64,000 nt of DNA, taken from positions 1-64,000 of the forward strand of contig NZ_JHWJ01000016.1 in the NCBI RefSeq assembly GCF_000687555.1. The letters run 5' to 3'. Of the stretch, positions 1 to 3,236 are shown one piece after another. Origin of the DNA: [Clostridium] aerotolerans DSM 5434. GTDB lineage: Bacteria > Bacillota > Clostridia > Lachnospirales > Lachnospiraceae. Position 1 is the stretch's first letter; every line of letters starts with the position of its first letter. A program made the translations under genes and the position numbers. The notes under the pieces are model-generated. The model had not been told where the DNA came from, did not search any database, and was given only the letters and a program-made list of their open reading frames with translations.

Positions 1-17
1 CGCAGTTTAACTAAAAC
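1..17 (+). repeat. Left inverted repeat of recombinase element
   Basis: CGCAGTTTAACTAAAAC is the exact reverse complement of bases 1405-1421. It contains the small dyad AGTT-T-AACT, as expected for paired recombinase arms. The left limit is set by the window edge. Confidence 0.85.
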
Positions 18-53
18 CACGCCGCAACTTTCAGACAAATTTCGACATCTTTC

Positions 54-83
54 ATTATATAATACCAGCTTATTGTTTGTCAA
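54..83 (-). promoter_or_regulatory. Consensus sigma-A promoter pointing out of the element
   Basis: On the minus strand TTGACA (83-78) is followed by an 18-base spacer and TATAAT (59-54), both perfect consensus. Transcription would start near base 47 and run through the left inverted repeat, away from the recombinase gene. After inversion of 1-1421 the -10 box would sit near 1363-1368, directed at the chemoreceptor gene. Confidence 0.8.
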
Positions 84-205
84 TCCTAACAAAAATAGTG
101 TTGATGATAGAATTCAAACGCTTAAAAATGAAAGATGCAAAGCATTTTGAGCGAAATTCACAACATTCGCCGTCAAAAATTACGTCAAAAAGGAGAATTA
201 TAGCA

Positions 206-1366
206 ATGCCGCGCAGAGGTGAAAATATATATAAGCGAAAAGACGGGCGCTGGGAGGGCCGACAGCAAAAATCCACTGGCAAATACCAGTACTTTTACGG
301 AAAAAGTTATCGAGAAGTGAAAGAGAAAATGAGATTCTTTATAGAAAACAACAAATTATCAGACGATGCTCCGGGAAGTTCTACTCCTAATGCGGTAGAA
401 CTCTTCTGCAACTGGTTGGAATGCGAGGCAGTTAACCGTGTAAAGCCTTCAACTTATGAAAGTTATTATAATTGTTTGAATAAATATATTATTCCATTCT
501 ATTCAAAAAATCACTGCGAAGAAATTACAGAAGGATCTGTAACGTTATTCGTAAAAGAAATGAAGGAGGAAACCTCAATCTCCGATGCTTATAAGAAAAA
601 GATTCTCGCTGTTTTTAAAACAGCATTAAAAGAAATTCTTATAAACCACAACGACTCTTCTATCATTCTTCAGGCAGTGAAACTACCTAAAACAGAACAA
701 AAAGAGGTAGAGATCTTTACAATGAAGGAACAAAGAAGTATAGAATGGGCAGCCATTAATTATGAAGATAAACGTGCACTCGGGATCATACTCTGCATAT
801 ACACCGGCATTCGTCTTGGAGAACTTTGTGCTTTAAGGTGGAGTGATTTCGACTTAGATGCTGCAACTATGTCCATAAAGCGTACCGTGACTCGAACAAA
901 AAACTTCAACAAGCAGGAAAGCAAAACTCTGCTGAATGTTGGTACTCCGAAAAGCCGTACTTCCATAAGAAAAATACCCCTTCCAGCGTTTCTTGTAACA
1001 ATTGCAAAGGATTATATCTTAACTGGAGATAAGGAAGATTATTATATATTATCGGGCAGCAATGCCCCCATTGACCCCAGGGCATACCAGAAGTTATATA
1101 AAAGGGTTCTTAAAAGAGCCGGTGTCAAGGACCGGAAATTTCATTCAACCCGTCATACCTTTGCTACCAGGGCACTGGAACTTCACGTGGATATTAAGAC
1201 TGTCAGCGAAATATTAGGCCATTCTAATGTAGCAATTACCATGAATGTCTACGCACATTCCCTTATGGAGCAGAAAAAAATAGCCATTGATAAGTTTAAT
1301 GATATGCATCTTACCAGTATGAAGCAACATACATTCGCCGTCGAATCCTCCGTCATTACCGCATAA
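206..1366 (+). CDS. Tyrosine recombinase/integrase
   Basis: This 386-aa protein of the phage integrase family cuts and rejoins DNA through a tyrosine nucleophile. Catalytic residues are visible: Arg203 (TGIRLGE), Lys249 (TPKSR), His313 and Arg316 (HSTRH), His339 (LGHS) and Tyr349 (NVYAH). The N-terminal half (about 60-160) fits a SAM-like core-binding domain, preceded by a short basic arm. The frame is open from 77, but ATG 206 is preferred because AAAAGGAG lies just upstream. The gene is flanked by inverted repeats and has no excisionase or cargo gene. Its bases are more A/T-rich than those of its neighbours, which suggests acquisition. A role as a DNA invertase is inferred from the repeats. 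Confidence 0.9.
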   Translation: MPRRGENIYKRKDGRWEGRQQKSTGKYQYFYGKSYREVKEKMRFFIENNKLSDDAPGSSTPNAVELFCNWLECEAVNRVKPSTYESYYNCLNKYIIPFYSKNHCEEITEGSVTLFVKEMKEETSISDAYKKKILAVFKTALKEILINHNDSSIILQAVKLPKTEQKEVEIFTMKEQRSIEWAAINYEDKRALGIILCIYTGIRLGELCALRWSDFDLDAATMSIKRTVTRTKNFNKQESKTLLNVGTPKSRTSIRKIPLPAFLVTIAKDYILTGDKEDYYILSGSNAPIDPRAYQKLYKRVLKRAGVKDRKFHSTRHTFATRALELHVDIKTVSEILGHSNVAITMNVYAHSLMEQKKIAIDKFNDMHLTSMKQHTFAVESSVITA

Positions 1367-1404
1367 AACTATGTAAAATCCAGGTATTTCACCATAGTGC
1401 CACA

Positions 1405-1421
1405 GTTTTAGTTAAACTGCG
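1405..1421 (-). repeat. Right inverted repeat of recombinase element
   Basis: GTTTTAGTTAAACTGCG is the exact reverse complement of bases 1-17. It lies 39 bases after the recombinase stop codon and 90 bases before the chemoreceptor start. Confidence 0.85.
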
Positions 1422-1511
1422 AATCCCATATGCACGCAATCTAATTTTTCTTACAGAGCAAATTGAAACAATCGTACATAAGAAAAAGACCAATAACAGG
1501 AGGTTCAAAGC

Positions 1512-3236
1512 ATGAAAAATTTCAGGGATTACAGTATTACAAAAAAACTACTCACCGCTTTCCTTAGTGTAGTGCTGATGATGCTAGTCGTTGGAGGCGT
1601 GGGTATCTTTGGCATGATCCGCATCAATCAAATGGATACCTATTTATATGAGGAGCAGACAGCACCCATCACCGAACTATTTGCATCAACCAAAAACCTT
1701 TACACTCTTCGTACAGATATTAATGCCATGGTTGTTCATTCAGGAAGCCAATCTGAGCTGACTAAACTAGAGCAGGAATATCAGAATTCAAAAAAAGCAT
1801 TTCTTGACAACGCAGCAGTATACCGTAAAAGTATAAAATCTGATTCAACTTTGGCATTGCTTGATGAAGCGACCCAATTGTTTGAGCAGTCATACGATCC
1901 GATGATACAGGCGTGTCTGGAGGCTGCTAAATCTGGAGATAGTATCTCTGCCTTATCTGCACTGAACCGTGATGCTGAAGCCATTCAGAAAATTTACGAC
2001 AACATGGATAAGCTTATCACCCTTCGTATGGATGCAGCGAAGGAGACAAGCCAAGGCAACGACAGCACCGCTATGGTTCTAACCGTGATCCTCTGCATCA
2101 TCGTGGCTTTGGGAACAATTGCTGCTCTCTATTTAAGCTTTAAAATCTCTAAGATGATCAGCGAGCCGATCGGCCAGGTAGTACTTGCTGCAAGGAAAAT
2201 CGCTCTTGGTCATGTGGATGTGGATTTAAAAGACATAGATTCCAAGGATGAGACCGGTCAGCTTGCCGATGCATTTACCCAGATGCTGAGTGGAATCAGG
2301 GAGCAGGTAATGATTGCAGAAGAAATCAGCAATGGTGATTTCACTCAGGAAGTCCCCCTCCGTTCCGACGAAGATGTTCTTGGACTTGCTCTTCGAAAGA
2401 TTGAAAATGACCTCAACCGCACCCTTCTTCTTATTAATATTTCAGCCGACCAGGTAAATACCGGCGCGGAGCAGGTATCCTCTGCTGCCCAGGCCTTGGC
2501 TTCTGGTTCCACCGAGCAGGCGGCTACCGTAGAAGAGCTGAATGCTTCTATTACTACCATTGCAAAACAGGCAGAGCACAACGCAGACAACGTCCGTCTT
2601 GCTTCCACTTATGTAGAACAAAGCAGCAGCGGAGTCCTTGCAAGCAATGAATTTATGGAGAACTTAAACGAATCCATGAATAAAATTGGTACTGCCTCCG
2701 CAGAAATCTCCAATATTACAAAGGTAATTGAAGATATCGCTTTCCAGACAAACATCTTAGCCTTAAATGCAGCCATAGAAGCCGCACGTGCCGGGGATGC
2801 CGGTAAAGGCTTTGCAGTCGTTGCTGATGAAGTACGAAACCTTGCCATTAAGTCTGCAGAAGCTGCCAAGGAAACCGGTGTCCTAATCACTCATTCCGTA
2901 GAAGCCGTTTCCGAAGGGGAACAGATGGCTACTGAAACTTCCAGAATCTTAAAAGAAGTACAGGAGAAATCCAGACTGGTGGAGCAGGCAATACAGGAAA
3001 TCGAATCAGCCTCAAGCAACCAGGTGGCAGCCATCGAAGAGATCAATCAGGGTCTGTCACAGGTATCTGCTGTCATTCAGACAAATGCAGCAACCGCAGA
3101 AGAAAGCTCTGCCTCCAGTGAAGAGCTGGCCGCACAGGCACAGACGTTACAGCAGGAAGTCGGAAAGTTCAAGCTCAATAAAAACACTTCCTTACAATCT
3201 AGTTTATCCCCTGCTTTCGGTTTGGGAAAATACTAA
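1512..3236 (+). CDS. Methyl-accepting chemotaxis protein
   Basis: This is a 574-aa transmembrane chemoreceptor that signals to CheA/CheW. Membrane segments lie at about residues 13-35 and 188-212. They bracket an extracytoplasmic four-helix-type sensor region and are followed by a HAMP linker. The cytoplasmic signalling domain carries the conserved hairpin tip ([21 protein letters not shown], then [13 protein letters not shown]). Ribosome binding site ACAGGAGG lies 8-10 bases before ATG 1512. I found no convincing sigma-A promoter between the right inverted repeat (1421) and the start. Expression may therefore depend on the invertible promoter or on read-through from the recombinase gene. The ligand cannot be told. 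Confidence 0.95.

Follow-up and report, generated by a model that had tools for sequence, protein, structure and literature searches.

Sequence evidence for a self-contained invertible promoter with its own tyrosine recombinase at a clostridial chemoreceptor gene

The genes for the fim recombinases lie outside the element that they invert, whose target differs from the one considered here, and RecV acts on cwpV from elsewhere. Hin, a recombinase of the serine type, has flagellin as its target. The element described in this study lies at the start of a stretch of 64,000 nucleotides of [Clostridium] aerotolerans DSM 5434, here called the window, and comprises a promoter and a tyrosine recombinase gene between inverted repeats, followed by a chemoreceptor (MCP) gene. 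It resembles the fim switch of Escherichia coli, in which a tyrosine recombinase inverts a short element and thereby connects or disconnects an operon (PMC9993118, in the part available), and the Hin switch of Salmonella, in which the recombinase is likewise encoded inside the invertible segment (PMC5903667, in the part available). For cwpV of Clostridioides difficile, the accessible part of PMC2784873 presents a model in which inversion to the OFF state makes an intrinsic terminator where repeat and inverted region meet, 60 to 70 nt downstream of the start, much like the OFF-state terminator predicted below. In contrast, the cwpV promoter is described there as located upstream of the inverted region, whereas in the window both the promoter (83-54) and the recombinase gene lie inside, with the recombination site in the stem.

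A link between DNA inversion and chemotaxis was already known in Clostridia, since inversion signatures detected in sequencing reads lie beside MCP or chemotaxis genes of Anaerotignum propionicum and Clostridium thermocellum (Sekulovic et al. 2018, PMC5903667, in the part available). The anatomy of recombinase, promoter and terminator, which is given here for the element in the window, is not given for those sites in the same part of the paper, which also describes a fimbrial invertible site of Providencia enclosing a recombinase gene. The original prediction of a recombinase that rides inside its own switch holds for the present locus, but its novelty does not, as Hin and the Providencia site precede it (PMC5903667, in the part available). 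Inverton group 139 with invertase group 35 from a gut community comprises 33 invertons, 32 of them from Clostridia, with tyrosine-type recombinases (PMC11892184, in the part available); the term 'chemotaxis' is absent from the main text as available. In the literature searched, which covered few subscription papers, we found no description of the recombinase family, of a recombination site that also forms the stem of a terminator in an element containing both promoter and recombinase, or of descendants in which such a switch is frozen.

Anatomy of the element and its left flank

The features of the element are listed in Table 1. The two inverted repeats are identical at 17 of 17 positions and enclose 1387 nt, and the MCP gene starts 90 bases outside the right repeat. 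A perfect pair of 17-bp repeats around a single tyrosine recombinase gene had been proposed originally and was borne out by the repeat search and the Pfam matches. The same holds true for the full-consensus promoter, which is enclosed by the repeats, as expected of an inverton, and points out through the left one; its score of 12/12 was equalled in 1 of 200 shuffles. The good ribosome binding site noted for the MCP gene is AGGAGG. The 90-base gap upstream of the MCP gene had been described as devoid of a convincing promoter, in agreement with best sigma-A-like and sigma-28-like scores of 8/12 each from the recombinase stop codon to the MCP ATG, obtained with consensus motifs of both types.

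Table 1. Positions of the element's features and of the adjoining chemoreceptor gene in the window
Feature	Position	Strand	Sequence or basis
Left inverted repeat / recombination site	1..17	+	CGCAGTTTAACTAAAAC; core CAGTTT-AACTA-AAAC
Promoter-proximal part of predicted OFF-state terminator	1..23	-	GGCGTGGTTTTAGTTAAACTGCG; presumably completed by CC-TTTTTT starting contig C22
TGTC-N6-TGTC direct repeat, between promoter and left repeat	34..47	-	seen in window; relatives by eye
Outward promoter TTGACA-N18-TATAAT	54..83	-	consensus score 12/12
Putative arm-type-like direct repeat, copy 1	163..187	+	CGCCGTCA...CGTCA; repeat family D1; relatives by eye
Tyrosine recombinase, 386 aa	206..1366	+	Phage_integrase, E 3e-27
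Putative arm-type-like direct repeat, second copy (80% identity), within recombinase 3' end	1331..1355	+	repeat family D1
Right inverted repeat / recombination site	1405..1421	+	GTTTTAGTTAAACTGCG; repeat search
MCP ribosome binding site AGGAGG	1498..1503	+	sequence
Chemoreceptor (MCP), 574 aa, 4HB_MCP_1 + HAMP + MCPsignal	1512..3236	+	MCPsignal, E 7e-42

Position 1 of the window is also the first base of contig C16, one of the 50 contigs into which the 4.73-Mb genome was assembled. The exact 17-mer is found three times in this genome, once in each arm and once at the very start of contig C22. Because reversed C22 and C16 share exactly the 17-bp repeat, the left flank of the window is probably contig C22 in reverse, with the assembly broken at both edges of the repeat. 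Inspection of the gene to the left of base 1, as originally suggested, revealed a methyltransferase gene on C22 that is oriented towards the element, opposite in strand to the outward transcript. The proposal that flipping would turn off this left gene therefore fails, as the outward transcript runs into a predicted, repeat-built terminator and the gene is encoded on the other strand.

Assembly word lengths usually exceed 17 bp, and a mixed population would thus be a natural reason for the break between C16 and C22, although the assembly is unbroken at the right repeat. In genome G012, the right repeat marks the exact start of contig C13, and contig C15 ends 38 bp past the left repeat; the sole recombinase homologue found in that genome is one without repeats, located elsewhere. 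The chance that one of 100 contig ends hits one of eight arm edges is about 2 in 10,000.

A second complete element of this genome lies outside the window (C16:118412-119835, locus L008 of G000). Its recombinase is 56% identical to the first and is directly followed by another MCP gene, and its arms read CGC(A/T)GTTTATCCAAAAC, with the same type of promoter and a different spacer. Its OFF-state promoter runs into a separate predicted terminator (-25 kcal/mol). The first base of contig C12 lies 4 bp inside the repeat of this second switch, and C12 is an exact duplicate of C16 over 1730 bp. The third recombinase of the genome (L010, on C11) lacks such repeats, and no MCP gene was seen by eye in the 14 kb fetched around it.

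As a control for the missing promoters, the 21 MCP loci of this genome were scored for sigma-28-like motifs; 15 MCP frames were recognized by motif and 10 had enough upstream sequence. The two switched MCP genes scored 8/12 each, L227 and L229 scored 10/12, and L228 and L239 carry a sigma-A-like motif of 11/12. This result fits the absence of a promoter at the switched MCP genes, with a sample too thin for proof.

Recombinase family and recombination sites

The R, K, H, R, H and Y positions of the recombinase, which we take to be the catalytic ones, are invariant across 12 aligned relatives, as in tyrosine recombinases. Homologues were found in all 25 genomes of the genus searched. The 38 loci fetched fall into copies flanked by inverted repeats beside an MCP gene (L046-L064) and copies without such repeats (L065-L083). 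Close recombinases were counted in evenly drawn samples, with the own genome included and at most four candidates scored per genome: at E 1e-100 the family sample yielded them in 2 of 397 genomes, and at 1e-115 the class sample did so in 3 of 391 and the order sample in 8 of 392. The genus of G898 has one in four of eight genomes.

Further comparisons were based on 32 repeat-flanked loci, including that of the window, which were chosen for their repeats and chemotaxis neighbors and include near-identical strains, so that they are not independent. In 27 of them the gene to the right of the element encodes an MCP (a 122-aa fragment in L109). L099 has CheW and then MCP genes at this place, L114 has HD-domain, CheW and MCP genes, and L189 and L190 have an HD-domain gene, while in L108 a CheW-MCP pair lies to the left and is faced by the promoter. 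The MCP gene of L052 (G024) is interrupted close to its start by a premature in-frame stop.

A quick tree of 89 recombinases placed all 26 chemotaxis-linked, repeat-flanked rows within one supported group of 43, the remainder being 16 rows without repeats, of which 14 represent the Lacrimispora paralogue, and a single further repeat-flanked row. The recombinase of the window is a member of this group, whose chemotaxis-linked rows come from Lacrimispora and other Clostridia. Among the best 80 of 561 relatives, flanking repeats scored at least 15 in 54, compared to 0 of 800 shuffles, and the repeat-flanked relatives outside the chemotaxis group adjoin various other genes. Eight of the 20 repeat-less copies (L010, L065-L083) were placed in the tree, and all of these nest in the chemotaxis group.

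The repeat scores of the 32 loci were at least 14 (median, 17), and those of 20 repeat-less paralogues were at most 11; 1600 shuffles gave a mean of 8.8 and a maximum of 15, so that the weakest loci overlap the shuffle extreme. The arms share the core GT(T/A)T-N5-A or G; in L049, L050 and L058 they agree over 14 bases, not 17. The 5-nt spacer occurs in 14 versions, and at all 32 loci the two arms have the same one, an agreement that is partly built in because the loci were selected by their repeats. Two spacers are found among 14 orthologous Lacrimispora loci, matched in both arms each time. Strand exchange by tyrosine recombinases needs a matching spacer between the partners, and arm-matched spacers are therefore the pattern expected of recombining sites. 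A third copy of the repeat is present 406 bp on in L048 (G001), where the right repeat and the MCP start were apparently duplicated in tandem.

These data also bear on the assumption that the element is a small mobile element of the Tn916/Tn1549 type, consisting of an integrase and terminal inverted repeats, which inserted before the MCP gene with its own promoter and switches nothing. The presence of one to four homologues in each of the 25 genomes would agree with this, as would the matches to phage integrase families and the best-scoring solved relatives, which are 'Int protein' entries (6emy, 6en0 and 6emz), presumably the Tn1549 integrase. However, instead of the varying insertion sites and changing neighbors of such transposons, we found a locus that is orthologous across the genus, with the same MCP gene and an ABC-transporter-type gene downstream. 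Moreover, the spacer agrees between the arms at every locus, 26 of the 27 repeat-flanked rows of the supported group adjoin chemotaxis or HD genes, and the MCP-facing promoter block outlives recombinase and repeats in the species described below. We regard a mere insertion as very improbable indeed.

Elsewhere in the wider recombinase family, L149 has the recombinase gene between inverted repeats of 466 bp, each with a copy of the start of the same gene, the left copy including a Cas12f1-like TNB domain. In several gut genera the same recombinase is found with 25-bp repeats (L141-L145, L147); the second frame after the recombinase in L141 encodes an rRNA adenine dimethylase (PF00398), which we take to be ErmB.

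Promoter, terminator and proposed switching

The outward promoter scored 12/12 in 26 of the 32 loci and 9 to 11 in the other six. Compared with shuffles it was no better in L114 (113/200) and weak in L099 and L108 (23 and 21 of 200, respectively). The OFF transcript contains in this order GGCGTGG, the repeat, CGCC and U6, which are predicted to form a terminator with a 10-bp stem (-12.6 kcal/mol) that lies partly inside and partly outside the element and consists mostly of the repeat. Terminators of -11.5 kcal/mol or lower were predicted in 20 of 21 Lacrimispora loci, the exception being L049, and for these 20 an intrinsic terminator confined to the OFF state, as in the cwpV type, is predicted. 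Termination in the OFF state is predicted to come from a separate, adjacent terminator at the three loci that resemble the second switch. Flipping in silico left a weaker terminator or none in 21 of 21 Lacrimispora loci, seven of which keep a stem of -8 to -10 kcal/mol with a poor U-run. Among all 32 loci, the assembled orientation shows no clear terminator in six (L049, L100, L106, L190, L192 and L108) and a marginal one in L189 (-8.2).

We propose that the recombinase encoded inside the element would recombine the two inverted sites and thereby invert positions 1-1421. In the assembled orientation (OFF), the strong promoter would be directed away from the MCP gene, and its transcript would stop after no more than about 60-70 nt, at a terminator with a stem formed by the recombination site and its inner and outer flanks. 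Inversion (ON) would place the promoter ~143 nt before the ATG of the MCP gene and dismantle the terminator, and the MCP gene would be transcribed. The distance had originally been estimated at ~145 nt; such a flip is supported by the occurrence of both orientations, by the spacers and by the assembly breaks.

Alternatively, recombinase and MCP gene might form a constitutive operon in which the MCP is expressed by read-through, with repeats that are regulator sites or relics of an inversion that is no longer active. The recombinase frame is directed towards the MCP gene at 21 of 21 Lacrimispora loci, and no strong terminator was predicted between the two genes, as expected for an operon. On the other hand, an inward promoter for the recombinase was not recognized at any of the 32 loci (best inward score, at most 10/12), the outward promoter has been retained in flipped orientation in seven species, assemblies break at the repeats in two genomes, and spacer drift is concerted between the arms. 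An operon of this kind appears very unlikely to us. For an invertible promoter, the lack of a recognized inward promoter and of a strong terminator before the MCP gene suggest that the OFF state may be leaky, with low rather than no expression.

Orientation of the promoter among relatives

Seven species (G004, G005, G007, G008, G017, G019 and G020) have the orthologous MCP gene without an adjoining recombinase gene, and the repeat pattern was not found anywhere in their genomes. Their MCP gene is faced by the same promoter with its flanks ('locked ON'), and all seven relics matched the flipped element (132-166) far better than the unflipped one (32-63). The four relics run through BLAST aligned in reverse to the element in the window (E 9e-29 to 1e-21); the alignments of L250 and L252 extend 3 bp past the outer edge of a left repeat, and those of L246 and L248 stop inside. 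Since the seven species form a single 100/100 clade nested among species with an intact switch, the relics are read as what would be one old freezing in the ON state.

Relics in OFF orientation are present in G010 and G003. In the latter the element measures 397 bp; its arms are perfect and share a spacer of their own, its promoter is intact, and only scraps of the recombinase are left. Oscillibacter valericigenes and Intestinimonas show opposite orientations at a CheW-MCP operon. The comparison of related genomes that had been suggested originally thus revealed the promoter block in both orientations at orthologous loci, as expected of an inverton: in the seven locked-ON species versus the OFF loci, and in L108 versus L099. 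L108 is the only one of the 32 loci with a recombinase frame (truncated to 331 aa in L064) whose promoter faces chemotaxis genes, and a flipped copy with a recombinase frame was found in 0 of 21 Lacrimispora loci (L050 being judged from the same locus, L091). The skew towards OFF in assemblies may be due to laboratory growth, a biased recombinase or the choice of the assembler.

Based on the anatomy, the conservation, both orthologous orientations, the spacer concordance and the assembly breaks at repeat edges, we are confident that the element in the window is a real self-contained invertible promoter (inverton) for a chemoreceptor. From the sequence we infer that inversion takes place in the sequenced strain, that the recombinase of the window would be its catalyst, that promoter and terminator would be active, and that chemotaxis would be phase variable. 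A real switch might instead have the short OFF-state RNA of about 60-70 nt as its main product, acting as a small RNA with the MCP gene as a bystander. The promoter-terminator unit is indeed conserved in the OFF orientation, but it had 0 Rfam matches at E values up to 1, and the locked-ON relics keep the promoter facing the MCP gene; we give this possibility hardly any credence.

For the invertible promoters as a whole, we lean slightly towards an old, dedicated and mainly vertically inherited clostridial family of self-contained chemoreceptor switches, each with its own recombinase, a spacer that would block cross-recombination, and a site that doubles as the stem of an OFF-only terminator. 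Genomes such as G023 have three switches with different spacers, which could give up to eight receptor repertoires within a single clone if this view is true. The fate of the switches would differ by lineage, as they can be frozen ON or cut down to a recombinase-less element of 397 bp. Chemotaxis is usually pictured as uniform sensing with a fixed receptor set, and a conserved DNA switch of a single receptor would make bet-hedging over swimming targets heritable and testable. A single short site for both recombination and termination would make for a compact genetic part. The occurrence of intact, frozen and reduced forms of the switch in the same genus would represent natural experiments on the birth and death of invertible promoters.

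The TGTC-N6-TGTC motif is an unproven candidate for an operator or a recombinase arm site. Just after the -10 box it is kept, by eye, in six of the seven locked-ON relics (L200-L206, with one change in L200). Its retention where recombinase and repeats were lost suggests an operator, and a role purely as a recombinase arm site sits badly with this survival. For elements that lack a recombinase, such as that of G003, the recombinases without repeats could supply the activity in trans.
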